A stretch of DNA of 64,000 nucleotides from Haloarcula japonica DSM 6131 (GCF_000336635.1 NZ_AOLY01000039.1:398131-462130); one strand, 5' to 3'. Counted from the stretch's first letter, positions 39,722 to 56,694 are shown. The notes: generated by a model not told the origin, from the sequence alone. Numbers and translations: made by a program.

Positions 39722-41749
39722 TCACTCTAGTTCAATCGCCTTACTAGCCGCATCAAGGGGATTAGTGTAGAACACGAGTTGGAGCTGGTCGAGGAGTTCG
39801 TCGGGGATTTTCGGCAAGTCTTCTTTGTTCTTCGCTGGAAGGAGCACCGTTTTGGCTCCAGAATCCGCAGACAGCTGGAGTTTATCGATCAACGAACTCA
39901 CGGAGACTAATTCGCCCATCAAACTCATCGATCCCAGTACAACCGTTTGTGGCCGAACTGGCCGGTCAAGAATTCCCGAAACAATACCTACGAGTAGCCC
40001 GACGCTCGTTTCACCACCCTCATTTGCATCAGAGGGGTTGAGAACCTGGACATTGATGTCGTATTCATCTAGGGTCTCTTCACGACTGAGTTCCCGCATA
40101 TTCGCCTGGAGATAGTCACAGGCGGTTTCGAACGACTCTTTCATCCGTTTTCCGGGTGTGCCAGAAATGTTCGTCTTGCCTGACCCCGGGAGCGTCTGTG
40201 TCTCGATTCGGAAGGGTGCGTGGCGTCCTTCGCTCTCACCTATTGTGTAGACCGTTCCTGCCTGCTGTGTTCCTGGGGGAATGAGTGACTCGTCTGCTTC
40301 TTCGGGTACTGAGACATAGATCTCCTCTTTCGTCTCCAGGTCAAGGTAGGAGAATTCGACGGCGCGATATTCCATACCGCCAATCCGCTTCAATTGCTCC
40401 TTGACTCGACGACGACCTTCCATAGCGAATTCGAGATACTCTCGGAGCTCTTCTTTCGTGTAGTGGCCATGTGGGTGAAGTAGCTTGAGTAGACCAGAGA
40501 CTGTCTTTCGTACTGCCTTTTCGTCTCGTTGGTTCAGATGGTCACCAAACGCGAACTCCTCGTTAATCGCGTCACCGTACGACTCCTTGCGAAGTTCGCG
40601 GACGAATTCAGCGAAGTAGTCGACGATGAATCCAAACTGGTCGCCAAAGAACTCGGACCGCATCTTCGGGACTTCCCACCCTGGAAGGTAGTAGTGGAAT
40701 CGGTCGATGAGCGCGAGATCCTGCATATCCTCGGGGAACGGTTCAAAGAGGTGTGAACTCTTGAGAACGCCTTCAACGTCGAGGTCAATGTTTCCGACGT
40801 AGACCATCGAGGCTTGGGCAGTCAGCTCTTCAGTCCCACGAGAGAAGCTTCCGGACTCCATGTAGTCTTTGAGCATCTGGACGGCTTCCGAATCGCTGAA
40901 CTGGAGTCCCCCGACCTCGTCGAATGCAACGACATCCCAGCGACCGACGAGGCCGATTCGTCCCGTATTCAGGTTCAAGAAGAGCTTTGCTACGGTGGTT
41001 TTACCGCCAGAGATGAGGATTGAATGGGGACTGATTTCGCGGTAGAGATAGCTCTTTCCCGTCCCACGTGGTCCCAATTCGACGTAGTTGTAATTCGACT
41101 CGACGAGTGGGATACACCGAGCCAAGAAGAGGAATTTCTCGCGGTCGCTAAATGAAGAGGGGTCGTAGCCGACAGTCTGAAGGAGAAGGTCCATCCATTC
41201 GTCGCGCGTGAAATCTTTACGTCGATCTTTCAGTTGGTCAAGGTCAAGATTCGATACCTGAATGGGTTTGAACGAGTCGATGCCGAAGAGGCTCTTTGGA
41301 CTGTTCGCATTATCGGGGAGATATTCCAAGTCGATGATAGCCCAGACGCCACCACCGAGGAGCTTTGGATGCTTGCTGACGAGATGTTCGTTAATCTCGA
41401 CATCGCTCAAACCGAGATTGACGAACGAACCGATGTAGGCATCCTGTTGCTCATCGAGCCTGACGGTGACCTTATCAATGACGCGATAGCGTCCTCGTTC
41501 TCGAACCTCGCTCTTGACGAATTCGGCTTCGTCGGGACGAACGTAGTGCTTCGACAGGATCTCTTTGACCTTTTCGAGGCCCTCTTCCAGAGATTCCTCG
41601 TCATCAGTCGCACAGTACTGTCCAATCAGATATTCGAGAACGTAGGTAGGGACGTTTACCCCGGATTTGATGTCCTGAACAAGGTCTTTCCGGACGACGC
41701 GCCCGGAGAAGACATCCAGGGCCTTCCGATCTACGTCCTCAGTCGTCAT
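39722..41749 (-). CDS. brxL: BrxL, Lon-like protease/AAA+ protein of BREX
   Basis: A 675-residue protein matching BrxL of type 1 BREX. The AAA+ part has Walker A ELGPRGTGKSYLYREI (about residue 228) and Walker B VVAFDEVGGLQF (about 273). The C-terminal Lon-type protease domain has the serine region EGGETSVGLLVGIVSGIL (about 580) and the lysine region SLIDKLQLSADSGAKTVLLP (about 622). BrxL assembles on DNA and is needed for defence in type 1 systems. It is the last gene of the pglX-tbp-pglZ-brxL unit, 121 bp after the pglZ stop. Length and motifs are intact. Confidence 0.93.
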   Translation of the reverse strand: MTTEDVDRKALDVFSGRVVRKDLVQDIKSGVNVPTYVLEYLIGQYCATDDEESLEEGLEKVKEILSKHYVRPDEAEFVKSEVRERGRYRVIDKVTVRLDEQQDAYIGSFVNLGLSDVEINEHLVSKHPKLLGGGVWAIIDLEYLPDNANSPKSLFGIDSFKPIQVSNLDLDQLKDRRKDFTRDEWMDLLLQTVGYDPSSFSDREKFLFLARCIPLVESNYNYVELGPRGTGKSYLYREISPHSILISGGKTTVAKLFLNLNTGRIGLVGRWDVVAFDEVGGLQFSDSEAVQMLKDYMESGSFSRGTEELTAQASMVYVGNIDLDVEGVLKSSHLFEPFPEDMQDLALIDRFHYYLPGWEVPKMRSEFFGDQFGFIVDYFAEFVRELRKESYGDAINEEFAFGDHLNQRDEKAVRKTVSGLLKLLHPHGHYTKEELREYLEFAMEGRRRVKEQLKRIGGMEYRAVEFSYLDLETKEEIYVSVPEEADESLIPPGTQQAGTVYTIGESEGRHAPFRIETQTLPGSGKTNISGTPGKRMKESFETACDYLQANMRELSREETLDEYDINVQVLNPSDANEGGETSVGLLVGIVSGILDRPVRPQTVVLGSMSLMGELVSVSSLIDKLQLSADSGAKTVLLPAKNKEDLPKIPDELLDQLQLVFYTNPLDAASKAIELE

Positions 41750-41870: not shown

Positions 41871-44297
41871 TCACACGTCAAATCCCATATCGTCATCTCC
41901 GAAGAGTAAATCTAGGCTCACAGTCTGTCTCGTGATCGTCTCTCTGGTGTCAGTATCGACGACTTCGAATTGGACCATATCTTCACCCGAGATGGCTCCC
42001 TGTTTGAGCCGAACACGGGTGCTATTGTCGCCAGGGGAGATCTCCATCGTAACAGGATCTGCGACTGGCTCACCATCGATGGTTGCACGAACCTCTAATA
42101 TTGGTGCGGGGTCGAAGGCGACTTGCCCACTCTTGGCCTCAATCTCCACGGTGAGTATGGAGTTTGTAATCGGATCAGGGATCGAGACATCGTAGCTGAT
42201 CGACGCGCTCTCTTCGATTTCGCCCGTGGTTACAGTGAGACACGGGACTAGGAGTTCTTGAAGCGAAATCCCACCGTGGAAGTAGCGCATATTCCCACCT
42301 CGTGACTTGAAGCACGCGACACTACGGGGGAATAGCAACTTGATCTCGGAGCCATCAATGCCGAGTTTCGACAGTGCCTCGTGACCGATTTCGACGAACT
42401 CATCAGTATCGACAAGTGGCGTTTCACGGTCGGTAGCAGCGAACCGGCGTTTGACGACCGGAGCAAGGTCAGGGGCCTCGACTTTGTGATCGTCATTCAG
42501 CCGGTCCGTATACAGGAACCCGTGATCGCTGGTGATCACGAAGCGAGTATAGCCGGCCTGTTTGAGACGCTGGACAGTCCGTTCAACATCGTCGACGTGA
42601 GACGCAACCTGGCTGAATGCAGCATCGTCGTCAAGACTCTCGCCGAGTTTGTCTATCGTACCGGAGTAGACGACACGCGGAACGGGGTCGGACTCGGTCA
42701 GCTCTTCCAGTGAAATGTCGCCCACCTCGTCCATATCGACGACATCGAAGCCCGCAGCACTGAGTCGTTCGACGCGCTCGGCCTTTCCAGCCATTTCCTC
42801 ACCACCGCTGGTGACGACGAGTTCGTCGTCGTCGAGCGAGAGTCCGAGTTCACCCGGTAGATGTGCAGCCATCCCAACCTCGGTGATCGACGGAAGTGCA
42901 GCACTCACTGCGGAGAGATCCTGTTCGAAGTCGGTTCTTCGTCCAAGATTTTCACGGATGGCTTCAGCAAGTTCGTAGCGGAGCCCGTCACAGATAATGA
43001 TCGCCGTTCCGTCTTCGACCTCAGCGAATTCCTCGTAGAACGAGGTCTGTGGCGTTCCGAGTGTCGGATCGTCGCTCAAAATCTCTGCCAGAGGCCGGTT
43101 GACGCCCTGAAGGAAGGCCATGTAGTGGTTAGTGACCTGGCGTTTCACCGTGGCTTCCTTTGGGTACGGGAATGTGGCTTTCTGGGTCGCGTTGATGTAA
43201 CGCCGATAGGCTGCGTCAACCTGCCACCAGCCATCGTCACTCGTGTACTGTCCTGCGAGTTCCATCGAACCCATCGCTTTCGCGTCGTCGACATCGACGG
43301 TACCGATCTGACGAAGCGTCTCTACTGCCAAAGCAGGCACCGACCAATCAACGAGATCCTCGTTGCTCCAGAAGCTGTCCCGACGTTTCGTAACTGTCCG
43401 ATTGAGTTCCGCCGCGATCTCCGGAAGATCGGCATACGTTTCCTCAGCAAGTCGATCCATCACGAGCCGAATCAGACCAGTGTCGATACCCTTGAACGCA
43501 GTAGCGTTCCATCGGGTTTGATCGGATTCGATCACAGCCTCTGTGAGATCGTAGTCAGCTTCGATCTCCCGTGAATAGCGAGTGAAATCGGCGGGAGCGT
43601 ACTGCTGCCAATCGTCGCAGAACTTCGCCGCTGCTTGGGCGTCATTCGCGGCGAGATTATCGTACTGTGCCGCTGGAGCACGACTCGTCACCTCACCGAA
43701 GAGGAGTTGGGTCGCCAGTTCTTTCGGGTCCAGTCCAGCATCGATGCCGTACTCCTCGCGGAGCTGTGCATCCCAGGCATCAGCCATCGCGTTATCTTCG
43801 ATGTCTTCGCGGTATTCCTCAGGATCAGTGAGATAGTCACGGACCCACTCGTCGATTGCTGGGCCTACAGTCTCGAAGAGCACGCAAAAGAACGCCAGTC
43901 GTTGGTATTCGCGGTTCTGTCCCCAGTCCTCGTAAGCGTCCGGGATCTCTTCGTCGTGTTCGACGAGGAACTGTGTTACCGGTGTGTCGTCGATGTCCTG
44001 GCCGACGCGGTACTGTCGGCCAAGCGCGTGGACATCGCGGAACCACTCGGCGTCGTTTCGAGACTCGGGGATATAGAACAACCAATTCTTCTCGTAGTCC
44101 GGATCCTCGTTTCGGAGACGGAGCTTTAGCTCGAAGTAACTGCCGTCGTAGCGAGCCAATGTGACATCGTCGAGTTCAGCTTCGACCTGGTTGAGGACGC
44201 CCTTGTACTTCTCCTGGGCGTCGTACCACACCCAGACCGGGTGTCGGTCGAATTTTTGTCGAAGTTCCGTGATGATGCTGTCCGCGAGATCTCCCAT
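41871..44297 (-). CDS. pglZ: PglZ, alkaline-phosphatase-like BREX protein
   Basis: An 808-residue protein with the PglZ domain. The N-terminus FDRHPVWVWYDAQEKYKGVL is the typical BREX start. The phosphatase-superfamily metal site is visible as AIIICDGLRYELAEAIRENL (about residue 432) and FVITSDHGFLYTDRLNDDHK (about 587). A beta-rich C-terminal domain follows (residues 700-808). PglZ is essential for BREX defence and methylation, though its substrate is unknown. It is complete and sits between tbp-1 and brxL. Confidence 0.93.
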   Translation of the reverse strand: MGDLADSIITELRQKFDRHPVWVWYDAQEKYKGVLNQVEAELDDVTLARYDGSYFELKLRLRNEDPDYEKNWLFYIPESRNDAEWFRDVHALGRQYRVGQDIDDTPVTQFLVEHDEEIPDAYEDWGQNREYQRLAFFCVLFETVGPAIDEWVRDYLTDPEEYREDIEDNAMADAWDAQLREEYGIDAGLDPKELATQLLFGEVTSRAPAAQYDNLAANDAQAAAKFCDDWQQYAPADFTRYSREIEADYDLTEAVIESDQTRWNATAFKGIDTGLIRLVMDRLAEETYADLPEIAAELNRTVTKRRDSFWSNEDLVDWSVPALAVETLRQIGTVDVDDAKAMGSMELAGQYTSDDGWWQVDAAYRRYINATQKATFPYPKEATVKRQVTNHYMAFLQGVNRPLAEILSDDPTLGTPQTSFYEEFAEVEDGTAIIICDGLRYELAEAIRENLGRRTDFEQDLSAVSAALPSITEVGMAAHLPGELGLSLDDDELVVTSGGEEMAGKAERVERLSAAGFDVVDMDEVGDISLEELTESDPVPRVVYSGTIDKLGESLDDDAAFSQVASHVDDVERTVQRLKQAGYTRFVITSDHGFLYTDRLNDDHKVEAPDLAPVVKRRFAATDRETPLVDTDEFVEIGHEALSKLGIDGSEIKLLFPRSVACFKSRGGNMRYFHGGISLQELLVPCLTVTTGEIEESASISYDVSIPDPITNSILTVEIEAKSGQVAFDPAPILEVRATIDGEPVADPVTMEISPGDNSTRVRLKQGAISGEDMVQFEVVDTDTRETITRQTVSLDLLFGDDDMGFDV

Positions 44298-44428
44298 TAT
44301 GTTCTCCTTTCAAGCGAGGACTGATTGTTGTTTTGGGAAGTTATGCTGGGAGATGAAATAGCTGGCTGGTCAAGATATATTCTAAGAGCACTCCCCAGCG
44401 TTAGCGGACGTGATGATTCAGTCAATTG

Positions 44429-44977
44429 CTATACACCAGTTGTAGATAATTTCTCATCTATATTTTGATAAGCATTTTCAAGCAGGTCTATGTCTGGAGT
44501 CCCATCAATAATAATTGAACCAGTCGCAAACAAGATTGAAAACCAATCCCGATCGTCTGGCCGGTAAAATAGCCCTGGGAATTGCTCAGGTTCGTACTCT
44601 GTCTCATCAATTCCAAAGGCTAGTGCAGCAGCAGAGAGATCGATTTGCCGTCCGAGATCGCCAGTTGTAACGAAGTATCGTATTTCCAATTCTGGATGTA
44701 TCTCAAGTCCTGTTTCAGTTGTAAGACTGGAACAGAATTTGTTAAATAGCTCTCTCGTGTTAGAAATCGACTTGCCGCCTGCAATATTAAATTTGCCAGA
44801 GCGGTGTAAAATCACCGTGGGTTCCAAATTATTATGGCGAAACACGACGCCAGGAAATGATTCTGGCTCATATTGAGTTCTAAACGATTCAAACTCTGTT
44901 TTGGCTATCGAATATAGATCAATTTCTGTGCCGATGGTTCCCCCACCAACAACATTCTGGATAGTAAGTTCACTCAT
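44429..44977 (-). CDS. tbp: Divergent TATA-binding protein homologue, TBP-1
   Basis: A 182-residue protein made of the two TBP repeats and nothing else. Repeat 1 has TIQNVVGGGTIGTEIDLYSI, YEPESFPGVVFRHNN and TVILHRSGKFNIAGG. Repeat 2 has RYFVTTGDLGRQIDLSAAAL, YEPEQFPGLFYRPDD and SILFATGSIIIDGTP. Standard haloarchaeal TBPs are about 186 residues and have the same spacing. The EPE-FPG phenylalanines that insert into the DNA minor groove are kept in both repeats. The second Phe of repeat 1 is His (ILHRSG). It lies between pglX and pglZ on the same strand, 66 bp after pglX, with AT-rich codons. A role as a dedicated initiation factor is inference. Confidence 0.88.
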   Translation of the reverse strand: MSELTIQNVVGGGTIGTEIDLYSIAKTEFESFRTQYEPESFPGVVFRHNNLEPTVILHRSGKFNIAGGKSISNTRELFNKFCSSLTTETGLEIHPELEIRYFVTTGDLGRQIDLSAAALAFGIDETEYEPEQFPGLFYRPDDRDWFSILFATGSIIIDGTPDIDLLENAYQNIDEKLSTTGV

Positions 44978-45043
44978 TACACTTCACATATCATAGTCAC
45001 AATATCTTTAACAGGCTATTCTATTCAGGGAAGTGCATCTGAT

Positions 45044-48000
45044 CTACCTGGAGTAGCTTGATTTCAGTTTTGGGAGTCCAGTTTCAAGAATTTCGTATTG
45101 GTCCCATTCTTTGATATTCTCCCAAATCCCTTTCTCCACATCAACGGTAACGCCGTCGTCAATCATTTTGTCGATCGTATCTCGGAATTCTTTGGTATCA
45201 TTGAGATCTTTTTGGACTTTCTCTTTCCGGTTTAGAAGATCCTTGTCTGGGTTATTGCCACTAGTCTGGGCATTTAGGGTTTCAAGTTCGTTTTCGAGTT
45301 CGTCAATACGTTGATCAAGATACTGGCCGCGAAGTTTTGGAAGTGTGTTCGAGTCTATTGCGTGATAGTAAACGAAGCAACTGAATGCACCATCCGGACT
45401 TTCGAGTTGCCAGTAAATCGGAATGCGCTGACCTCGACGACGGTATTCCTTGCAATGATGGTATCGGAAGAAGGATTCACGTAGCCAATCTTCCAATGAA
45501 GTTCCTAGGGAATCTTCAAGAGACGACTGCACACTCGAACCATCGTCAAAAACCGTTTCCAAACAGCTCGAAATTTGCTCACTTACATTTTGATTGGCGC
45601 TCTCGTTGAAACTTATTATTCCATCATCAACAGTTTCTATATCTTTATTGACATCCCACCGCCCGAAGAGTAACCCTAGACAGAATGACAGAACATAACC
45701 GACAGATTGTTCGAGTCTTTCGTCATCATAGAGATTCTTAATGTACCGGGCATCTGCGATTGTTAGAGGCGATATTTCCAAATCTTCCGCTGCGTCACGA
45801 ATGTCTTCTGGGCCTTCCGAAATGTCTGAGAGCAAATTCTCATATTCATCCAGTGTTAGGGTCTTCTTGGGAACCTCATCACCGAAGGTTCCATAATTCG
45901 TTTCTAAGTTTTCTACGATAGGATATGTTGAGAGATTATTGGGCAAATTATTGTATAGTCGGTCCCTTTCTTCTGTTGGGATTGAGTATTCGTCATAGAT
46001 AACTGGGTCTATAAGCCCGTGGATCAAACCCACTTCTGCATTGAGCTGGTCTTTATGATACAGTAGTTCTCTCACTCCACCTTGGACGCAGTCGGTGAAG
46101 AGTTCCGGGTCAAACTGATCACTAGTTTCATCTAGCGATACTAATCGCTCCCTGCGTTCCAATGCCTGGTTAACGAGATCCTCTACTTTTTCTTGTTCCG
46201 CCGGTTCCGGATCAATTGGTAGTCGCTTCACGTCACCGACTTCGAAATTCAACGACGGATTGATTCCGTTCAAAAGGAACCGAACCAACGTGGAATTACC
46301 ATAGCCAAGTAGATACTTGTCACTTATTTCCGGTGAGTAAACGAAGTGCGATTTGTGATAGAAGATAGTGTCATCTGGCTTTTGGCGAGCAACTGCATAA
46401 TTTCCGAAACCTCGGAATGAGATGCCCTCTCGGAAGTAGTAATCTGGATTTTGAGGGCGGCTTCCGCTATATTCTTTCACCTCTTTACCATCATTTTCCC
46501 AGTCAAGATAATCACGTTGAGTATCATAGTAAGGAGAAGAAGATCCACTTTTCTGATATGGAACATAATAGCTTTTTAATTCCTCAGAGGGTACTTCCCA
46601 ATGTTTTCTAACAAATCGGTCATCATCCCCGGTGGCTAGTCCCTGTTTCACTTCTACTGACTCTTCTATCGCGGGATATTGGGAGAAGAGGTTGAGAAGG
46701 GAATCACCAAACCAGTATAAGAATGGCTGTCGACCAATCGATAGAAAATCATTCGAATTGATTATATAAATGTCGTCTGGGTCATCACCTTTTCTGATTT
46801 GTTTGACTAAGTAGTTCAAGCCCTGTATTTTCTTTTCGTAGTTCTCGTATTGATCTTGTTCGTGAGTCATACGGTAGAAGCGTGTTTCAGTAAGCTCCCC
46901 CGGCTCACTATTTCGAAGAAGGAATGGGATAGTGTAGGCGTCTTTTTGTTGATCAAATCCATAACGGGAGAGATGGACCCCTTCGACAAATTGATGATTC
47001 TGAAGTAGAATCCGACGAAGCTTCCGATAGCTGTACGAAAACATATAGTTCTCTGGGGTGACTAGTGAAGCATATCCATCATCCTTAGCGAACTCCCAAG
47101 ATCGCTGAATGAAGGCAGCATACAAATCGCGGGTTCCAACATATCCGTCTTTCACATATTGTTTTAAATTATCCCCCATTTTCGCGCTACCCATATAAGG
47201 TGGATTAGCGACCACCACGTCGTAATCACGAATTAGAACGTCAAGAAGTTCAACTGTCTTCGATACCTCTGAGGCAAACATTTCGTCAATTGGGTTATCC
47301 TCGTTAAGGGCGATTCGAGCTATTTCACGGGTGTTCTCAAGTAACCGCTCTTTCACAGCGTCCCATGATTCCGATTCATTATCCGAGAACGAAACAACGG
47401 AAGCCTGTTTTTCAAGTCCCCCACTTTGCGTAAACTTGGATTGACCTGCTGCTTCGAGTTCGTCCCGGTATTCATCGATAATCCCCTCGATACGCTCTTC
47501 TACTCGGACAAGACTCCCCCACTCACGAATATGTTCAAAACTAGTCCAAATCTGTTCCAGAATTTCCTTTTCGAGCTCCGATTGTGATCGGTTAAGGACT
47601 TCCTGCTTTTTTTCACCATTTATCAAGACTGCATCTGCCGAGACAATATTAATTTGGTCAACATCGATATTTGGAGCCCGTGCTTTCGCTTTAAGATATA
47701 GTGACAGGGCCGCGATTTGTGCTGCACCAGAGTCAATATCGATTCCGTAGAGGTTGTTGCGGAGAATCTCACGTGGAATGTATTTTTCGGGGATCTCTCC
47801 TTCCTCTAAATACATCTGGTAGAGCACATCAAAGGCGTAGAATAGCATATGACCGCTGCCACAAGCAGGGTCAAGCACAGTAATGTCCTCAACTGCTTTG
47901 GTCTCTCGTTCAATCAAAGAGTCTTGCAGCGGGGAGAGATAGAAGCAATTCTTCTCATCGTCAATATTTGTTCGTTCGCCCTGCATTTCGAGCCACGTTC

Positions 48001-48769
48001 GACCCAATGAGTTGTCAACCATCCACTCAACGATGTACCGTGGAGTGAACAACTGAGTCTTCGTGGCTATATCCGTCCCAGCAATCTTGTAGTTCTCTTC
48101 ATCGATACGCTCATCAATGTCTTCGCGTTCTTCCTCACCGAAATACTGGTATACCCAACCCAGTGCTTCGTCGCTCTCCCATGCTTCGTCGTCGATTAGA
48201 TCTAGATCATCAAGGACTTCCTCGCGTACCTGCGCATCAAGGTCGATAGCGGTGTGTTCAGATTCCTCGAAAATCATCCGAATCTCTGCACCGATCTCCT
48301 GATACGCGAGATCGAGTGTGGCACCGAAGCCGTCGTCGGGTGCGTTAGTTAGCTCGCCGGCGATTTCAGCGACGGTGTGATGCATATATGATCGGTTACC
48401 GTACTCGGGTCGCTCGGTGATTGTTTCCTCGACGAGGCCACGAACTTCGATAATTTTCAGCGCAACGAATCGATTTAGGTAGGTCTTCGTCGCTTCGTGG
48501 ACGTAGTTGGTTATCGACCGCTCCAAGTCGCCCTCAGTCGATTCGAGCTCTCGTTGGATAGCCGCATTAAGAGTACGTCGGGTGTGAATCTCCTCAACGG
48601 AGAGGTGTGTCAGATTCTCAAGTGGGAGTTTCTTGTCCTCGTAGATGCCGTACTTTTCGAGCTGGCGTCGAAGCTCATCTTCGAGCGTATGGCGCGTACT
48701 AAGAATCGCACTTCGAATGTTCGAGCGCTGATCCGACGAAAGACCGGGTTGACCGTGTGTTGTGGACAT
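45044..48769 (-). CDS. pglX: PglX, BREX adenine-N6 DNA methyltransferase
   Basis: A 1241-residue protein with the large PglX layout. A helical N-terminus comes first. The methyltransferase core has SAM motif TVLDPACGSGHMLFYAFD (about residue 299) and catalytic VVANPPYMGSAKMGDN (about 520). Long target-recognition and C-terminal helical parts follow. PglX marks the host genome at an asymmetric site so that BREX can tell phage DNA apart. I chose MSTTHGQPGL at 48769; the frame opens at a TTG 28 codons earlier without conserved residues. Codons after about 48000 become visibly AT-rich, unlike brxC. A TATATAAG-like box on the minus strand near 48880 is the likely promoter. The gene is intact. Confidence 0.93.
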   Translation of the reverse strand: MSTTHGQPGLSSDQRSNIRSAILSTRHTLEDELRRQLEKYGIYEDKKLPLENLTHLSVEEIHTRRTLNAAIQRELESTEGDLERSITNYVHEATKTYLNRFVALKIIEVRGLVEETITERPEYGNRSYMHHTVAEIAGELTNAPDDGFGATLDLAYQEIGAEIRMIFEESEHTAIDLDAQVREEVLDDLDLIDDEAWESDEALGWVYQYFGEEEREDIDERIDEENYKIAGTDIATKTQLFTPRYIVEWMVDNSLGRTWLEMQGERTNIDDEKNCFYLSPLQDSLIERETKAVEDITVLDPACGSGHMLFYAFDVLYQMYLEEGEIPEKYIPREILRNNLYGIDIDSGAAQIAALSLYLKAKARAPNIDVDQINIVSADAVLINGEKKQEVLNRSQSELEKEILEQIWTSFEHIREWGSLVRVEERIEGIIDEYRDELEAAGQSKFTQSGGLEKQASVVSFSDNESESWDAVKERLLENTREIARIALNEDNPIDEMFASEVSKTVELLDVLIRDYDVVVANPPYMGSAKMGDNLKQYVKDGYVGTRDLYAAFIQRSWEFAKDDGYASLVTPENYMFSYSYRKLRRILLQNHQFVEGVHLSRYGFDQQKDAYTIPFLLRNSEPGELTETRFYRMTHEQDQYENYEKKIQGLNYLVKQIRKGDDPDDIYIINSNDFLSIGRQPFLYWFGDSLLNLFSQYPAIEESVEVKQGLATGDDDRFVRKHWEVPSEELKSYYVPYQKSGSSSPYYDTQRDYLDWENDGKEVKEYSGSRPQNPDYYFREGISFRGFGNYAVARQKPDDTIFYHKSHFVYSPEISDKYLLGYGNSTLVRFLLNGINPSLNFEVGDVKRLPIDPEPAEQEKVEDLVNQALERRERLVSLDETSDQFDPELFTDCVQGGVRELLYHKDQLNAEVGLIHGLIDPVIYDEYSIPTEERDRLYNNLPNNLSTYPIVENLETNYGTFGDEVPKKTLTLDEYENLLSDISEGPEDIRDAAEDLEISPLTIADARYIKNLYDDERLEQSVGYVLSFCLGLLFGRWDVNKDIETVDDGIISFNESANQNVSEQISSCLETVFDDGSSVQSSLEDSLGTSLEDWLRESFFRYHHCKEYRRRGQRIPIYWQLESPDGAFSCFVYYHAIDSNTLPKLRGQYLDQRIDELENELETLNAQTSGNNPDKDLLNRKEKVQKDLNDTKEFRDTIDKMIDDGVTVDVEKGIWENIKEWDQYEILETGLPKLKSSYSR

Positions 48770-48988
48770 GGATTCTAAAGGATGACACGCCGCCGCGAAA
48801 CGGATGGGATGGCGGCGTACTTTGTCATAGATCCCACCCGTGAGGACATACAACCAGCAAGCGCTCGGCAGGTCTTATATTGTTGGGGTTATTGTTCGTT
48901 CCGTAGTTAATCGACACCAATCACGGGAGATTGACTACGTCAAGATCAACGGAGTAAGTAATAGGGAACCTGAATATATGTCTAAGTA
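48770..48988. promoter_or_regulatory. Divergent promoter region between pglX and tbp-2
   Basis: A minus-strand AATATAAG element at about 48876-48883 can serve pglX with a leader of roughly 80-100 bases. On the plus strand GAATATATG lies at about 48971-48979, only 10-18 bp before the tbp-2 ATG, closer than usual. Another AT-rich string (ATTATAAATATAG) is inside the first tbp-2 codons. The true tbp-2 start may therefore differ slightly. Confidence 0.45.
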
Positions 48989-49537
48989 ATGATTCGAATT
49001 ATAAATATAGTTGCTTCAGGAGATCTTGGTCAAGAATTCGATTTGGTTTCCCTTTCCGAAGATCTAGATCTACCTCATATTCAGTACGAGCCCGAAATAT
49101 TTCCCGGTGTTCAACTTCGGCTATCACCCAAAGGTGCCGTTATGACCATCTTTTCGACGGGTAGTTATACTATCACTGGAGTACAAAGTGAATCAGAGTT
49201 GAGATCTATATTCACCGAGGTTGTCTCCGCCATTAATGAGATATTGTCAGAAAGTGTGAAGCCAGAATATCCTACGGTTAACAATCTTGCCTGTAAAGCT
49301 GCGTTGGAGAGAGAGTTAGATCTTGCAGCAGTATCGATTGGTCTTGGTACAGAACATACAGAATATGAGCCCGAGCAATCACCATTTGTTTATTATCGCC
49401 CAGACAATACTAACTGTGTGATTACGATAGCTAATAACGGCAAAGTAGTTATTACTGGAGTAGAGGAGAAAAAAGAGGCGGAACGGGCTTTCAGTTATTT
49501 ACAAGCCGAAATAGATCGCTTGTTTTCTAATAGTTAA
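48989..49537 (+). CDS. tbp: Divergent TATA-binding protein homologue, TBP-2
   Basis: A 182-residue two-repeat TBP-like protein, on the opposite strand to the BREX genes. Repeat 1 reads NIVASGDLGQEFDLVSLSED, YEPEIFPGVQLRLSPKG and VMTIFSTGSYTITGV. Repeat 2 reads LACKAALERELDLAAVSIGL, YEPEQSPFVYYRPDNTN and VITIANNGKVVITGV. The second repeat has lost both minor-groove phenylalanines: EPEQFPG is EPEQSPF and the LLF strand is TIA. Bending of a normal TATA box by this protein is doubtful. Its 3' end faces that of brxC, 57 bp away. The two BREX TBPs are clearly different from each other. Confidence 0.86.
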   Translation: MIRIINIVASGDLGQEFDLVSLSEDLDLPHIQYEPEIFPGVQLRLSPKGAVMTIFSTGSYTITGVQSESELRSIFTEVVSAINEILSESVKPEYPTVNNLACKAALERELDLAAVSIGLGTEHTEYEPEQSPFVYYRPDNTNCVITIANNGKVVITGVEEKKEAERAFSYLQAEIDRLFSNS

Positions 49538-49594
49538 AATAAATGAATCCAACCACAGGATCGGATTAGAGAGAAATCTGACGATCTATGTCAA

Positions 49595-52500
49595 TTATCT
49601 AAATCGGATCTCTATGTCTCCATCCTGATCAAGAAGTTCTTCGGTCTCTGCGCGAAGTTCTGAGATCGGTTGATCGATGTCGTCCGGATCGGTGACGACG
49701 ATGGATCCGAAGATGGAGTCGATGTCCACGCTTTCTCGAACAGTGCCGTCGTCCTCATCATCTTCCAGGTCATCAATCTCGGCCTTCGCAGCGTCTTCGT
49801 ACGAATCAACGGTCTGGATATGCTCGATGAGCCGTGGAAGCGACGGTGTCGGATTGATGTGCTCCTCATTGGAGATATTCAGATCGACCGACCCATCCCC
49901 CTGTCGTTCCGTCAGATCGGACAGAGCAGTGTCAAGATCGGTTTCATCGATGTCGGATCCAGCATACGCCCGAACCAATTCGATGGACTCTGTGTACGTC
50001 TCGTGGCGTTTCTCGTACAGGGATTCGTACGTGGTCGTGAAGGCTTCGGCGGTAGTTCGGTAGTCAGTCTTGACATTGTTCCACTGGCTGATGACACCTT
50101 CCGTGTCTAACGTATCAGCAACGCGGCGGGCCGCCTCACGCGCTTCATCGCTGATGTCGACAAGCCCAGCGTGGTCATCGGCCTCGTCGACGAGAGACTC
50201 CCACTCGGTCGTGATGAACCGCTGAATGGTTTCGTAGGTCTCCAACCGGTTTTGGCCGCCGGTCTCACCGCAGAATTCGGCGACATCCTTCGCGGTTTTC
50301 GTGAGGCCTTCGAGTTCGTCTTCGAAGTCGACGAACTGTTTGATACGCTTGGCCGACGTGGGTTGTTGCAGCAGATTGTTTAATCGCGTCTGGAATTGCT
50401 CTACGTCGTCTGCCAGCGGGAAGTCGACCCGCTGGAGTTGCGAGAGGAGTGTGCTCGTGGTTGAAACCCACTCGTTTGCTGCCTCTCTGATTCCCTCGTC
50501 GACGGCCTGGTCGGTCGATTTGACCTTCCGGTCGAAGAGTCGGTCGAGGAGTTGCTTCGCATCGGTTCGTGTTTCGACATCGACGGTCTCCCGCTCATCG
50601 AACGACGTGGACTTGAATTTCGTGACTTGCGTGAACAGCTCCTGTGCGCCGTCCTCGGAATACGTCTCGTACGTTCGCTCCTTGTGTGTCGGAATGACGG
50701 ATCCGTTTCTAAAGAGCACGGCAGCGGCCAGGCGAACGACTTCCCGGCTCCACCCGTACGGTGGTTCAGCGAAGTGGTCGATCAGATCGCTTCCAGAGCG
50801 GGACTCTCCGGCTTTCTCGCGTCGCTGAATTTCGTCTTCGACCTCGGAAGCGATGCGGGCCTCTGCGATGAGATCGCCGTCTTGGACGACGCCGAGGTCC
50901 GAGAACACAGATGGGTTCGACGAGCCTTGGAGATCTTCGAATATCTGCTCGATGTGACGATCTTTGACCGTGGCTGACCCGTGTTTGAAACTGGAGAAGA
51001 CTTTGGGAATGGCGTTGTCCGTCTTCCGGGACACGAGCGAGCTAAGTGAGGTGCTTGTCGTGTCGAATTCTTCGGTGTCACCGTTGTAGATGAGTGTGCC
51101 GCGCTGGAAGCTCCGTTTGAACTCGCGTTCGACCTCGTTCCGGAGACGCTGGAGATCTTCTTGCTTCTGCCCGAGGGCTTCCTGCTCCTCTTGGCTGAGT
51201 TCGTTCCCTCGTTTTGACTTGACGACGGTATTGATCTGGTAGATCGATTTTAGCTTCTCGTAGATGCTGTGTTGCTTCTCGCCGTCTGCAATCCAGTACA
51301 GCGTATCGTCTTCACTGAAACTCTGTGTCTTCAGCCCATCCGGGTCAAGGTCTTCGTACCGCTGGTGGATCGGTGAGTAGGTTTTGAGATCGACGTGTCC
51401 GTTCGACGTGATGGTTTCTCCGTCGATACTCAGATTCAACTGGAACGTTTTCCCTTGGTAATTGACGCGGGATGTTTCGTCAAGGATGTCGTTCAGGAAG
51501 CGCTTCGAGGAGCGACGGATGTCGCCGGGGCCGACCTCGATGCTTTTGATTTCGTTTTCGAGTTCACGCTCGGTCTCTCGAAGGAACCGGTAGCCCTCTT
51601 CGCTTCGCCCGACGAGCCCGGCTTCGACGAGTGCATCAAGCGTATCTTGTACGTCGTTTTCTAACTGCTTCGTGGGGCCGAGCTCCGTCTGGAGTGAGGT
51701 TGCAATGTTGTCGGCGGTGTTCGGGATCCAGGGGAGTTGTTGGAGTAGATAGAGTGACTTGAGAACGCGGCTGGCGATTTCTGGATCGGCGTTCTTTGGT
51801 GTGGCTTCCCGGATGGATTTGACATCGTTGCTCGGGATGTCGTTGCTGATCTCGTCGAAGATCATATCGAGCGTGACGAGTGCCCCGAGTTCGTCGTTGT
51901 AGAGATGGGCCTCGTCTTTCAGCACGCTCTGTGTGACATCGATGAGCGTTCGCTCGCTGCCCGCGAGTTGGTCATCCGAGCCTTTGCCAAGTGCCTTGAA
52001 CATCTCCGGGAGAATGTCGAGCTGGTACGGAAGGAACGGGTAGCAGTCGATAAAGTTCTCTCTCGTGATTGGCTTCAGACTCTGACCGGAATCGAGCTTG
52101 TACCTGGCGGAAAGGATGCCTTCATGCTGATCGTACAGATTCCCGATGGCTTCCCTGGCGTCGCCTTTCTTGCTGAGAACACGGTCACGGACGACCTTGT
52201 CGAGGTTTTCGGACGTGAGGTCGAACCGGTGCGGGAATCGATCGATGACTTTCGATTCCTCGGCTTCTTTTTCGAGCACACCGGGGATGAGCTGCTGGAG
52301 CTGTTCCTGGGACGTGACTCCGAGATATACCTTCCCCTTGCCTTTCTGGCCGAACTCCTCGACGATACTCTGGAGTTCCAAGAGGAGCTGTCCATCATCT
52401 CCGATGAACTGGGAGATTTCGTCGATGAAGACGAAGTATCGGGAGTTGTTCCCCGTTTCGCGTTCCTGCTGTTCGACGTATTCGACGATGTCTTCCGCGA

Positions 52501-53239
52501 GGGTCGAAGCGTTGATCAGAACGTTGTCCTGAACGTCATCGATCGCACGGGCTGCGTCGTCTTCGTCGTCGAACTCGTCTGTCGCTTCTACCAGCGCAGT
52601 CTCCATATCCGACCGCACGAACATCGCATCTTTACGGGCCTCTGTCCAGTCTTTCCCGGTGTTTGACTCGATGGTAGCGACGAAGTCATCGTACACGCCT
52701 CGTGATTCGAGTTCCTGTTCCATCTGGGCGACCCAGGGCATGGAAGCGTACCCGCGGGACGTGTTGAATTCACGGTGAATGATCTCGGTGATGGATTCGC
52801 TTCCAGATGCATCGGCCTTCGCGCCGATCTGGAACATCAACACCTCGGAATCGAATTTGTTCGTGACCGACGAGACGGCCCCGTCGAGCATCTCGTTGCC
52901 CTCGATCCGATCGCGGAACATCTCCGCCGCATACGTATCCCCGAACTCCCGGTTTTCCAAGACGTGCCCGAGGATCTTCATGAAGTGGCTTTTCCCGGAT
53001 CCGAAGAATCCGGAAACCCACATCCCAACGTCCTCTGTTTGGGCGTGTTCCGTGTCGATGACGGCCTCTAGGGCGTCCGAGAAGTGCCGTTCGAGTTGCG
53101 GTGTGAGGATGTACTCTTCGAGTTCTTTCTTGACGACGCTCGGGTCATCGTTATCGACTTTGACGACCCGGTCGATCTTCCGATTGATCGGCCGGTAGAA
53201 GATCTCGTTGATTTGGTAGGTAGAAGTAGTGTCACTCAT
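49595..53239 (-). CDS. brxC: BrxC, BREX P-loop ATPase (DUF499/PglY-like)
   Basis: A 1214-residue ATPase. It starts NEIFYRPINRKIDRVVKVDN, the hallmark BrxC N-terminus. Walker A is WVSGFFGSGKSHFMKILGHV (about residue 77) and the Walker B region RYFVFIDEISQFIGDDGQLL (about 270). Long helical, coiled regions fill the middle and C-terminus. BrxC is core to BREX and is thought to remodel the complex with ATP. It begins within the end of brxB (8-bp overlap). Its third-position GC is high, in contrast with the adjacent AT-rich tbp-2 and pglX. Confidence 0.93.
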   Translation of the reverse strand: MSDTTSTYQINEIFYRPINRKIDRVVKVDNDDPSVVKKELEEYILTPQLERHFSDALEAVIDTEHAQTEDVGMWVSGFFGSGKSHFMKILGHVLENREFGDTYAAEMFRDRIEGNEMLDGAVSSVTNKFDSEVLMFQIGAKADASGSESITEIIHREFNTSRGYASMPWVAQMEQELESRGVYDDFVATIESNTGKDWTEARKDAMFVRSDMETALVEATDEFDDEDDAARAIDDVQDNVLINASTLAEDIVEYVEQQERETGNNSRYFVFIDEISQFIGDDGQLLLELQSIVEEFGQKGKGKVYLGVTSQEQLQQLIPGVLEKEAEESKVIDRFPHRFDLTSENLDKVVRDRVLSKKGDAREAIGNLYDQHEGILSARYKLDSGQSLKPITRENFIDCYPFLPYQLDILPEMFKALGKGSDDQLAGSERTLIDVTQSVLKDEAHLYNDELGALVTLDMIFDEISNDIPSNDVKSIREATPKNADPEIASRVLKSLYLLQQLPWIPNTADNIATSLQTELGPTKQLENDVQDTLDALVEAGLVGRSEEGYRFLRETERELENEIKSIEVGPGDIRRSSKRFLNDILDETSRVNYQGKTFQLNLSIDGETITSNGHVDLKTYSPIHQRYEDLDPDGLKTQSFSEDDTLYWIADGEKQHSIYEKLKSIYQINTVVKSKRGNELSQEEQEALGQKQEDLQRLRNEVEREFKRSFQRGTLIYNGDTEEFDTTSTSLSSLVSRKTDNAIPKVFSSFKHGSATVKDRHIEQIFEDLQGSSNPSVFSDLGVVQDGDLIAEARIASEVEDEIQRREKAGESRSGSDLIDHFAEPPYGWSREVVRLAAAVLFRNGSVIPTHKERTYETYSEDGAQELFTQVTKFKSTSFDERETVDVETRTDAKQLLDRLFDRKVKSTDQAVDEGIREAANEWVSTTSTLLSQLQRVDFPLADDVEQFQTRLNNLLQQPTSAKRIKQFVDFEDELEGLTKTAKDVAEFCGETGGQNRLETYETIQRFITTEWESLVDEADDHAGLVDISDEAREAARRVADTLDTEGVISQWNNVKTDYRTTAEAFTTTYESLYEKRHETYTESIELVRAYAGSDIDETDLDTALSDLTERQGDGSVDLNISNEEHINPTPSLPRLIEHIQTVDSYEDAAKAEIDDLEDDEDDGTVRESVDIDSIFGSIVVTDPDDIDQPISELRAETEELLDQDGDIEIRFR

Positions 53240-53801
53240 GTCCGATCACCTTTGCGCGGTAATATGTTCCCTCAGATTCGTCGAGGAATCTTAAACTCTT
53301 GTCATCAACGGTCGCAGGATAGCAAAACACGATCGGGGTCTCATCCGGTGTGTTCGTTTCCAACTGCCCCATCAGAGTCGATGCACTAGCGAACGGGTAC
53401 AGGATACCCATTCGATACACGATAACGGTGTCTGCGTCTTCAGCCTGCGTGGCAATAGCCGATGCCAGTTGTCCCATTTCGCCGTCGTCGAGTAGTGAGG
53501 ATTTCAATCCGCTGAGCAGCTGTTCACGATCTCGACGTTCGAGGTCGATTACGTTGTCGAGGATGCCTCGCTCTTCAAGCACGCTGAAGACGAGGTCACG
53601 CATATCGATCGCGGCAACCGTTTGGTCGTGGTACTCCAGCTTCTCGATGAGACTCCGAATTTCCTCATCGACTTCGATTTCGTCGGCTGGATCGTACGTG
53701 AACACGATAAACGGAACTCCCGCTCGCTTTCCGACTTCTTCTCTATCCTCACGAACGAGTCGTTCGACTTCTTCGAGTCGTGTTTGAAAGTCAGAAAGCA
53801 T
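53232..53801 (-). CDS. brxB: BrxB (DUF1788) BREX protein
   Basis: A 189-residue protein of the DUF1788 family. The core VPFIVFTYDPADEIEVDEEI, DTVIVYRMGILYPFASASTL and TPIVFCYPATVDDKSLRFLD is typical. BrxB is required in type 1 BREX, but its activity is not known. The start lies 11 bp inside the end of brxA, and its stop overlaps the start of brxC. The three are one transcript. Confidence 0.92.
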   Translation of the reverse strand: MLSDFQTRLEEVERLVREDREEVGKRAGVPFIVFTYDPADEIEVDEEIRSLIEKLEYHDQTVAAIDMRDLVFSVLEERGILDNVIDLERRDREQLLSGLKSSLLDDGEMGQLASAIATQAEDADTVIVYRMGILYPFASASTLMGQLETNTPDETPIVFCYPATVDDKSLRFLDESEGTYYRAKVIGHE

Positions 53802-54603
53802 CGATCAACTTGTCTACCGTCTCGTGTTTCATTCTCAATCGTTCTGTCGATCCTCGTTTCTCATAGTTTATGTACTGTGGCGAAATGTCGCGGATTCGGC
53901 GCTGGACTTCGGATTCATCCATCAGGAATAGTTTCCAGTCATCGTGTTCGATCACGTCCGATGCGGACGTAGCTTCTTCGTCGAAGAGACGATACACGAC
54001 GTACGCGATCGTTTCGTCAGGGATGTAGGTGACTGCGAATTCCTTTCGCTGTCTACCTTCTAACAGGCCGAAGTTTCTGAGTGAAGTGAGATACTTCGTT
54101 GCTGCCTCATTGATCGTAGAGTCGGAGCGGTCACGAAGGTCAGCATAGTCGTCCTTGATTGATTTGATGAACGTGACGATGTCTTCGGCCTGGATAGAGA
54201 GAGTGCCGCGCTGAAACTCGGGATAGAGGAATTCGATCGTGATGAGGCGGATGAATGGGTCTTGGGCGAACTCGTAGTAGAGACACCAATCGGCTACATC
54301 ACTCCGAACGTCAGCTGAAAGTACCCGCATTAGCGGGGTCTCGGTGTAGTCTTCTTTACTCGGGATGTGTCTCCGGGTTACTTCGCGGAGAATGTTCGTT
54401 CGGTACTCGTCCGTGTTTTTGTTCAGGATGTTGTCTTCGACCACCATCCGCTCCAGTTCATCGTACGATTCAGATTCGGTATACGCCTGAAGGATTCGCT
54501 TGGTCTCGTCGATGTAGGTACTGTGATGGGCGATTTTTGGGTCAAGACTCGTGGCTTGATCGTCGTTGTCTTCGTCTTCAGGCTCCAGGTGCTCGTTGCT
54601 CAT
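53791..54603 (-). CDS. brxA: BrxA (DUF1819, NusB-like) BREX protein
   Basis: A 270-residue helical protein. It has an acidic 30-residue N-terminal extension, as often seen in halophiles. The DUF1819 core follows: DETKRILQAYTESESYDELE, WCLYYEFAQDPFIRLITIEF, INEAATKYLTSLRNFGLLEG, FAVTYIPDETIAYVVYRLFD. BrxA is a NusB-fold DNA-binding protein in characterised systems. It lies 9 bp after the BrxE-like gene and overlaps brxB. Confidence 0.9.
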   Translation of the reverse strand: MSNEHLEPEDEDNDDQATSLDPKIAHHSTYIDETKRILQAYTESESYDELERMVVEDNILNKNTDEYRTNILREVTRRHIPSKEDYTETPLMRVLSADVRSDVADWCLYYEFAQDPFIRLITIEFLYPEFQRGTLSIQAEDIVTFIKSIKDDYADLRDRSDSTINEAATKYLTSLRNFGLLEGRQRKEFAVTYIPDETIAYVVYRLFDEEATSASDVIEHDDWKLFLMDESEVQRRIRDISPQYINYEKRGSTERLRMKHETVDKLIDAF

Positions 54604-54612
54604 ATGGAGTCC

Positions 54613-55260
54613 TCACGCGCTTTCCGATTTAAGTTCCGAGTTGAGTGGATAATACGGGACGTGTAGCCGTTCCGTATTTTGGCCGTAGCCACGCAACAGA
54701 GTGGCCAGCAGTCGCCATTTCTCTGCCTCAATCTCGGACTGGTCGAATCCATCTTCGCTGATACGATATGACTCACTCCCCGGATCAGAGAGTGAAATGG
54801 AAGCGACGGAGATATTCGATGCCATCTGTTCAATAATCGGGTCCGCCCAACCGGTCTCTAGAGACTGGACAGAGAGATCCTCAAGATCAGTCAATAACGG
54901 TTCATCGGGAGCGTTGAGATCTTCGATGGCAGCTCCGAGTTGTGCTTCGAGCTTTGGACCGAACGAAAACAGCGAGATGGAATCAGCAGGGAGTACATCC
55001 GATTCTGCTTTCCGCCCGACCTTCATTGCAAGGTTGACCTGAGACTGCAGCCGGGTTTTAGGAGTCACTTCTTCCAGTCTTGCTCGGCCAGTTTCTGAGA
55101 GGACACGTGAGTCCCACCATCCTCGATTATTCGATTCACCAACGCGTTCGATCAATAACCGGGACCCGATGAGATCTAGAAAGAAGTCATCTTCCAGTCC
55201 CGCCTCGCGGAGATTCTGCCGTGTTGAGGTAAACACCTCGACGAGATCGTGTGAAGTCAT
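54613..55260 (-). CDS. brxE: BrxE-like protein heading the BREX operon
   Basis: A 215-residue protein. The N-terminal third FLDLIGSRLLIERVGESNNR, GWWDSRVLSETGRARLEEVT and PKTRLQSQVNLAMKVGRKAE follows the pattern RLGE...GWW...FPRT that I know from the BrxE family of type 6 BREX. Its place next to brxA fits. The C-terminal half, probably a winged helix, is unassigned. The symbol is tentative. Its ATG abuts the upstream frame of the divergent metallophosphoesterase. Confidence 0.6.
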   Translation of the reverse strand: MTSHDLVEVFTSTRQNLREAGLEDDFFLDLIGSRLLIERVGESNNRGWWDSRVLSETGRARLEEVTPKTRLQSQVNLAMKVGRKAESDVLPADSISLFSFGPKLEAQLGAAIEDLNAPDEPLLTDLEDLSVQSLETGWADPIIEQMASNISVASISLSDPGSESYRISEDGFDQSEIEAEKWRLLATLLRGYGQNTERLHVPYYPLNSELKSESA

Positions 55261-55377
55261 ATGTACATCCTCAAGTTGGGATGGCTTAGAACCAGCGCCT
55301 CAACTCTTGGAGCACGTAGTAGTATCTGGCTCGGTACGGAACAAATATCACCGTACGGCAGGGAGTTGTCGAGTACG

Positions 55378-56694
55378 ATGGGTGCTGGGAACGAGTTGGT
55401 GGAGTTGTATGACGGTCTTTCGGTTCTCTATAGCTCGCTGCCTGAGGAGACGGAGTTGGAGTGGAAGCGAGCGGTGAAATCAGTCTTGTACGGTGGAGAG
55501 CTGTTGGCTGAAGAAGCGTCGTGTTATGGGGAACAGCAGAATAAGCGGAACCACAAGAAGCGGAAAGAGTACGTCCGCCGATATGGAGATGGGTCACGGA
55601 TTACGGAGTTTTCAGCCATCACAGTGGCGGAGCCACGGCCACAAGATCGACAGTATGTTCCGTCCGGTGCGGTGATCCCGGTTGCACCGGAGTCTGGAGA
55701 GGTGCTCCCGGTACAGGTCTCGACGAACGAAGTCGATCAGGCCATCTCGTTATTGGCAGAGTTCCCAGCCGAGCCGACAGCGGATCGGTTAGGTGAGGGT
55801 GTTGACGTGCTGTTAGACCCGGTTCGAGTTCGTCGTGCTCGAAAGAATGCAGGGAGAGGGATTGGAGATGACAAGGTAACGGTGCTATTTGTGAGTGATA
55901 CGCACCTTGGGTATGAGAACCGGGTCGTGACGGGGCGCGGCAAGACGGTGTCGTGGATCAGTGAGGTGTCGAGTACCGACGCGTTCACACGAATCGTAAC
56001 GATTGCGATTGAGCAGGATGTTGATGCGGTTATTCATACGGGCGATATTGTCGATCACGAGGTTGACCGGGAAACTCTCGACAGCGCTGCGGCGAGGTTG
56101 GAGCTATTATCCAAGGTAGGGATCCCGGTCTACTGTATCATTGGCTCACACGACCGAGATTCATACACACCGCAACACACGAATTCGGAGAATGGGATCG
56201 CGTGGTTACAACAGCAGGTTAGAAAGGGTACTCTCGTGGAACTCTCGACGAGTCCGACGCCGGTTGCGGGCGGGCCGCTTGACGCGTATGGGATTCCAGC
56301 GGGAAATACAGGGATCGACGACGTTGCGAAGTTCAAGCCTCTGGGATGGGAGCCATCCGATATGCAGTTCGAGTCGTCGTCATCCGGGCCGAACGTACTC
56401 TGTCTCCATGACGGCGTCACACCGTACCGGGATCGATCGACTGCTGATATTGATCTGGATCAGTTGCTTAGCCGATCCGGAGTCTCGTTCGATTGTGTAT
56501 TGATCGGGGATGAGCATCGACCGAAAGACGATGACTTTGATAGCGGGTATTCATTCCAAGCGAGAGACGGTACGCCAGTACTCTACACCGGACCAGCTAT
56601 ACGGATTAGTGAGCCATACCGTGATCACGAGTCATTCGTGACGGAATTGACGTTCGCTGCTGATGGAGTCATTACGACTCAACACTCAGTGTGA
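55378..56694 (+). CDS. Calcineurin-like metallophosphoesterase, Mre11/SbcD-type fold
   Basis: A 438-residue protein from the ATG at 55378 (MGAGNELVELYD). A longer frame from 55261 would begin 1 bp from the divergent brxE start and leave no promoter. Residues 1-160 are a unique helical domain. The phosphoesterase motifs follow in order: FVSDTHLGYENR (about 173), VIHTGDIVDHEVD (about 215), IIGSHDRDSY (GNHD-type, about 255), CLHDGVTPYRD (about 340) and IGDEHRPKDD (GHxH variant, about 376). Two-metal DNA or nucleotide phosphodiesterase activity is likely. It precedes the SF2 helicase by 116 bp on the same strand, and I infer joint work. Confidence 0.8.
   Translation: MGAGNELVELYDGLSVLYSSLPEETELEWKRAVKSVLYGGELLAEEASCYGEQQNKRNHKKRKEYVRRYGDGSRITEFSAITVAEPRPQDRQYVPSGAVIPVAPESGEVLPVQVSTNEVDQAISLLAEFPAEPTADRLGEGVDVLLDPVRVRRARKNAGRGIGDDKVTVLFVSDTHLGYENRVVTGRGKTVSWISEVSSTDAFTRIVTIAIEQDVDAVIHTGDIVDHEVDRETLDSAAARLELLSKVGIPVYCIIGSHDRDSYTPQHTNSENGIAWLQQQVRKGTLVELSTSPTPVAGGPLDAYGIPAGNTGIDDVAKFKPLGWEPSDMQFESSSSGPNVLCLHDGVTPYRDRSTADIDLDQLLSRSGVSFDCVLIGDEHRPKDDDFDSGYSFQARDGTPVLYTGPAIRISEPYRDHESFVTELTFAADGVITTQHSV

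Follow-up and report, generated by a model that had tools for sequence, protein, structure and literature searches.

A complete type I BREX locus carries divergent TBP genes on both sides of pglX

The window analyzed here is a stretch of 64,000 nt from Haloarcula japonica DSM 6131 (GCF_000336635.1 NZ_AOLY01000039.1:398131-462130). Pfam and PADLOC scans identified brxA, brxB, brxC, pglX, pglZ and brxL, showing that a complete type I BREX system is present. The gene order (brxA-brxB-brxC-pglX-pglZ-brxL) and the protein families are those of type I BREX, but the slots on either side of pglX carry genes coding for TATA-box-binding proteins (TBPs), which are foreign to the described system. The features are listed below in window coordinates.

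39722-41749, minus strand: brxL (Pfam, PADLOC)
41871-44297, minus strand: pglZ (Pfam, PADLOC)
44340-45049, no strand: accessory slot 2 at the pglX-pglZ junction, which holds TBP-A
44429-44977, minus strand: TBP-A, 182 aa, on the same strand as pglX and 66 bp 3' of the pglX stop codon
45044-48769, minus strand: pglX, adenine-specific DNA methyltransferase (PADLOC PglX, E 5e-157)
48873-48879, minus strand: pglX TATA box, TATAAGA, with CCC upstream (alignment of 15 haloarchaeal BREX loci)
48888-49601, no strand: accessory slot 1 at the brxC-pglX junction, which holds TBP-B and its own upstream region
48989-49537, plus strand: TBP-B, 182 aa, transcribed away from pglX and towards brxC
49595-53239, minus strand: brxC (Pfam, PADLOC)
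53232-53801, minus strand: brxB (PADLOC)
53791-54603, minus strand: brxA (PADLOC)

The start codon of pglX is the ATG at 48769; the longer ORF, as listed, begins with a TTG at 48853. Directly 5' of brxA lies a 215-aa gene (54613-55260, minus strand) that is kept in haloarchaeal BREX loci with 33-98% identity and for which Pfam and PADLOC scans gave no match. Divergent genes beyond the BREX operon code for a metallophosphoesterase (55261-56694, plus strand), which adjoins many other BREX loci as well, and a ResIII/DEAD-type helicase (56811-59402, plus strand).

TBP-A and TBP-B are genuine divergent two-repeat TBPs. PF00352 matches both proteins above its curated cut-off, with two repeats in each (E 2.5e-32 and 3.5e-39, respectively), and their best sequence relative in the PDB is the TBP of M. 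jannaschii (2z8u, E 2.8e-25 and 4.3e-24, respectively). An AlphaFold2 model of TBP-B (pLDDT 94.5) superimposes on the archaeal TBP 1mp9 with a TM score of 0.87, and solved TBPs gave TM scores of 0.8-0.9. The two proteins share 30% identity, and each shares 36-38% with the canonical TBP of the same genome. Hence the first-pass annotation, which had reported two dissimilar TBPs around pglX inside BREX, was correct on this point, as it was in placing TBPs outside the described system, since no PADLOC TBP model matched.

At the DNA-intercalating positions, TBP-A carries F,H/F,F and has lost one residue of the N-terminal pair, and TBP-B carries F,F/S,A and has lost the pair of repeat 2. Both keep the TFB-contact motif EYEPEQ. 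Phylogenetic analysis grouped TBP-B with TBP27b of the same genome (SH-aLRT 99) and with the first TBP of locus L128, inside the divergent set. TBP-A formed a long branch near the base of this set in a quick tree that did not include named TbpC proteins, and a search of the genome contigs with TBP-A alone as the query returned no relatives. Together, these residues and groupings indicate that TBPs altered in opposite halves occur as pairs in the window, L013 and L128.

H. japonica encodes six TBPs. One is canonical (contig C36), and the other five are all found at defence-like loci: two in the BREX locus of the window, two on contig C27 (L013) around a BrxHII/DrmD-like SNF2 helicase gene adjoining a DrmMI-like methylase gene, and one on contig C11 (L014) beside a truncated SNF2 helicase gene and a DUF1156 methylase gene.

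TBP genes occupy accessory slots in other haloarchaeal BREX loci

The first-pass annotation had proposed to look for TBP neighbours in other archaeal BREX loci. A search for BrxC in 146 genomes of the family and 392 of the order yielded 20 BREX loci in which brxC-pglX-pglZ is complete, including the window and counting two copies in one genome as one. Six of these 20 loci hold a TBP gene in the pglX-pglZ slot (the window, L027, L029, L030/L031, L034 and L058). The BREX TBPs come from at least three lineages, as they require five label changes on the tree, at least three of which are forced by starred branches. The remaining 14 loci lack a TBP gene; therefore, TBPs are dispensable for BREX as such.

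Nucleotide alignment delimited two exact slots, at the edges of which homology to other BREX loci breaks and resumes (48888-49601 and 44340-45049). The brx genes of L026 share 94.9% nucleotide identity with those of the window right up to the slot edge, and by comparison TBP-B sits on a clean insertion of about 714 bp. In other BREX loci, slot 1 consists of 70-90 bp or contains a different gene, and slot 2 contains TBPs of other lineages, a 172-aa gene without Pfam match, or a gene for a RecF/SMC-like ATPase, a GmrSD protein or a HAD protein. Overall, the cargo of BREX slots includes Mrr-type and NucS-type nuclease, GmrSD, RecF/SMC-like ATPase and HAD genes, often in loci devoid of TBP. TBP-A, TBP-B and pglX have a GC content of 0.40-0.46 versus 0.51-0.56 for the rest of the locus. 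The junctions beside both pglX and pglZ were also seen to act as cargo slots in L050, L055, L057, L059, L061 and L062. L030 and L031 are near-identical BREX copies on one contig in which brxC, pglX or pglZ is broken into overlapping frames, possibly due to sequencing errors or decay.

The core promoter of pglX (TATAAGA and the upstream CCC) is invariant across 15 BREX loci with or without TBP. Between this TATA box and pglX lies an upstream ORF of 24 codons (48775-48849, minus strand), which starts 30 nt from TATAAGA and stops 5 nt ahead of the pglX ATG. Its length and spacing are identical in 13 of the 15 loci, an earlier ATG having been chosen by the script in the other two, and its codon-position pattern gave no sign of protein-level constraint.

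Divergent TBPs are linked to diverse restriction-modification genes

A profile built from nine non-canonical TBPs (A1) and searched in the genomes of the family revealed 19 further loci (L065-L081, L084 and L093), all 19 of which have a restriction-modification (R-M) or methylase gene in the same stretch. A second profile built from 26 TBPs (A2) was searched in 392 haloarchaeal genomes. Sixty loci picked on score alone (L098-L157) were compared with 20 control loci bearing ordinary-type extra TBPs (L158-L177), using a threshold of at least 50 bits for R-M matches. Of the 60 divergent TBPs, 50 had an R-M gene within 5 kb, versus 0/20 control TBPs (Fisher p = 8e-12), and 43 had one within 500 bp, versus 0/20 (Fisher p = 4e-9), although these counts are not fully independent, as some controls come from a single plasmid context and many divergent loci represent a single cassette. 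Additional Pfam matches to a methylase in L104 and L140 and to a NotI-family nuclease in L142 raised the number of divergent TBPs with R-M neighbours to 53/60. Given that N6-methylase matches occur about 5 times per ~4 Mb in the genomes of the family, adjacency would be expected by chance in about 1% of cases. These proportions, together with the occupation of the same slot in other BREX loci, exclude that the TBP genes lie beside pglX by chance.

The partners of divergent TBPs include type I, type IIG and DISARM-like systems with a methylase and an SNF2 helicase, and are also found on plasmids. Pfam confirmed HsdM/S/R, N6_Mtase, Eco57I, McrBC, NotI and DUF499 among the neighbours. This diversity on the TBP tree answers the non-independence of the counts: there are about 31 changes of partner type, and a single clade with a support of 99 (L014, L101, L103, L108, L111, L119 and L140) associates with DISARM-like, type I, IIG and N6 partners. 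Close TBP relatives are thus found with unrelated R-M types, suggesting that the TBP is a portable companion. Such switching of partners fits a controller that moves between systems better than a dedicated subunit of a single machine.

A restriction of the class to BREX was rejected on the basis of the R-M genes found within 5 kb of most score-selected TBPs. The earlier interpretation, centred on BREX only, is therefore partly right and too narrow, BREX being one case among several R-M types. Outside haloarchaea, no match above 183 bits was found in the 247 genomes of the phylum sample. TFB genes lie near three divergent and three control loci, showing no enrichment, and a dedicated TFB partner was accordingly rejected. 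Our search of the full-text literature found no report of linkage between TBP and R-M genes, and a survey of haloarchaeal R-M systems (PMC6471742) does not mention TBP.

Related TBPs are also encoded by haloviruses. Annotated phage records contain two distinct TBPs of the divergent kind: the gene in Halorubrum virus HRTV-9 lies directly 3' of a type IIG R-M gene, and that of Haloarcula virus HJTV-2 adjoins genes for an N4-cytosine methylase and an Eco29kI nuclease. A third is located after a IIG-type gene on an IMG/VR contig. Hence, all three haloviral TBPs with an altered repeat 1 adjoin R-M genes. On other contigs of lower GC content, viral TBPs with four intact phenylalanines were not accompanied by genes matching the R-M reference set. 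The position of the altered viral TBPs next to viral R-M genes suggests that they are R-M accessories, and is no proof of a strategy for virus takeover.

Divergent TBPs share an altered first repeat and resemble TbpC

The intercalating residues are F,F/F,F in all 35 control TBPs examined. Conversely, 64 of 102 divergent TBPs carry Y,Y/F,F, and most of the remainder show other losses, while 94 of the 102 retain EYEPEQ in repeat 2. Fixed differences between the two classes (F42Y, V46Y, A55L, L57T, F59Y, V65I and F83L) are confined to repeat 1, and EYEPEQFPGL in repeat 2 is invariant in the same comparison. In the TBP structure, the differing positions include residues of one half-saddle that intercalate into DNA or contact the minor groove, and TFB/TFIIB is contacted by the YEPE glutamates. 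Furthermore, dN/dS values of about 0.07-0.15 in the measurable pairs, which do not include TBP-A and TBP-B, indicate purifying selection in those pairs.

The TbpC clade of haloarchaeal TBPs was described by sequence as having lost the N-terminal phenylalanine pair; its transcript was not detected in the conditions tested, and it was left as possibly nonfunctional or very specialized (Becker et al. 2014, PMC4230888). The parts of that article on which we draw make no mention of a linkage to R-M or BREX. As far as the clade is defined there, most members of the divergent class resemble TbpC in combining two TBP repeats with loss of the N-terminal phenylalanine pair and retention of the C-terminal one. 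This pattern is seen in TBP11, TBP27a and many R-M-linked relatives, and a member from Halobacterium DL1 is annotated as TATA-box-binding protein C. TBP-A and TBP-B do not show it and are more divergent relatives rather than clear members of TbpC. On pNRC100, VNG_RS12735 carries Y,Y/F,F and lies at the end of a methylase-helicase-TBP operon in which the methylase gene is split by ISH27. Its signature and location, rather than a name match, suggest that this gene is the tbpC of Halobacterium NRC-1. Deletion of NRC-1 tbpC produced no apparent phenotype (PMC2121645), perhaps because the linked methylase gene is interrupted in that strain.

Divergent TBPs as candidate controllers of methylating defence systems

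The presence of divergent TBPs beside many restriction systems, even in viruses, suggests that they control or serve those systems. On balance, we think it probable from these comparisons that the modified TBPs form a haloarchaeal class travelling as accessories of DNA-methylating defence systems, and that they act as transcriptional controllers of the adjacent system. Transcriptional control is favored by the retention of the TFB-contact motif, by portability, by selection, and by the presence of the class on plasmids and in viruses. Counting against it are the 14 complete BREX loci devoid of TBP, the lack of a consistently linked TFB gene, and the absence of an apparent phenotype on loss of NRC-1 tbpC, although the methylase gene linked to the latter is split. 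A modified TBP would bind a TATA promoter with one half-saddle altered and still recruit the general TFB, thereby raising or damping expression of the methyltransferase or defence operon, for instance to time it after entry into a new host. In the window, TBP-B is divergent and lies immediately 5' of the pglX core promoter, which is unchanged; pglX is therefore the likeliest target. Both the direction of such control and its target promoter, as well as any joint action of the paired TBPs, are inferred. More tentatively, half-modified TBPs could be plug-in controllers of many methylating defence systems in hosts and viruses alike, with pairs bearing opposite defects cooperating at some loci. 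The first-pass annotation had suggested that the TBPs may give BREX its own promoter selection. Transcriptional control is retained as the best explanation, but selection of promoters specific to BREX is only partly supported because the TATA promoter of pglX is the same with or without TBP, and no special motif was found.

Bacterial R-M controller (C) proteins are small DNA-binding proteins encoded next to the methylase and portable between unrelated R-M systems; they are helix-turn-helix repressors or activators with defined C-boxes. By analogy, the divergent TBPs, which are likewise small, methylase-adjacent and apparently portable across unrelated R-M systems, could be functional counterparts of C proteins derived from a basal transcription factor. 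However, TBP-A and TBP-B have the TBP fold instead of a helix-turn-helix, and no operator was found.

Alternatively, the TBP could be a non-transcriptional partner, a subunit that bends or marks target DNA in concert with the methylase or helicase, for example in a TBP-SNF2 pair resembling Mot1-TBP or as a promoter mark on incoming DNA. Overlapping operons of methyltransferase, SNF2 helicase and TBP genes do recur in many genomes, and HsdR of type I systems is likewise a SWI2/SNF2 ATPase. TBPs are also part of the TOTE/TALON conflict systems (TPR, OB, TBP, effector), of which TALON is rare, largely confined to Chloroflexota, and includes a TPR-CSD fusion, a NERD nuclease and a YprA helicase (PMC12458937). 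The window resembles these systems in having TBPs within a defence locus, but Pfam and PADLOC scans of its BREX proteins gave no TPR-CSD/OB, YprA or nuclease match. We regard a non-transcriptional role as unlikely, since many loci with a methylase and a TBP lack an SNF2 helicase (e.g. L084, L131 and L135), none is present beside BREX, the partner enzymes are unrelated machines, and such a role would not require the TFB-contact motif to be kept.

The loss of one intercalating pair in most members, the opposite alterations of the paired TBPs and the existence of haloviral relatives would all fit half-defective proteins that fill TATA boxes unproductively and only damp host or viral transcription, as an abortive infection-like effector or a decoy for viral takeover. 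The altered viral TBPs themselves adjoin viral R-M genes, which argues against such a brake, and we hold it to be quite improbable. Finally, surplus TBP paralogues carried by plasmids and islands might land near R-M genes simply because both are mobile, as the AT-richness of TBP-A, TBP-B and pglX compared to the rest of the locus and the acceptance of other cargo by the slots could suggest. Control TBPs, too, are accessory genes that often reside on small contigs or plasmids, yet none adjoins R-M genes; this, the adjacency within 500 bp of most divergent TBPs and purifying selection disfavor hitchhiking and leave it very little probability.

The role of surplus haloarchaeal TBPs has been in question since the genome of Halobacterium NRC-1, and TbpC, in the description cited above, was left as possibly dead. 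Its association with R-M, DISARM-like and BREX loci now suggests a concrete and testable function for the TbpC-like class. If this is confirmed, a general transcription factor would have been turned into a mobile regulator of defence, a novelty for archaea.

Conserved motifs upstream of TBP-linked operons

R-M operons with linked TBPs did not differ significantly in TATA type, and no convincing clade-wide promoter motif was common to them. Motif matches in clade C1 were rejected as a special promoter element because they reflect homology in the region 5' of the TBP gene itself. The palindrome TAGTCTAAGTAAAGACTA is conserved in the promoter of DISARM-like operons (L065, 2345-2362; also L066, L067, L069, L070, L073 and L013). 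The first gene of these operons codes for a 63-aa putative AbrB-like protein; consequently, this product is the likelier ligand, and TAGTCTAAGTAAAGACTA was dropped as a TBP site. A near-palindrome, TCAAAACTCGATTTTGA, is conserved about 45-60 nt before the start of the N6 methylase gene beside the TBP gene in L072, L074, L109, L121 and L127.
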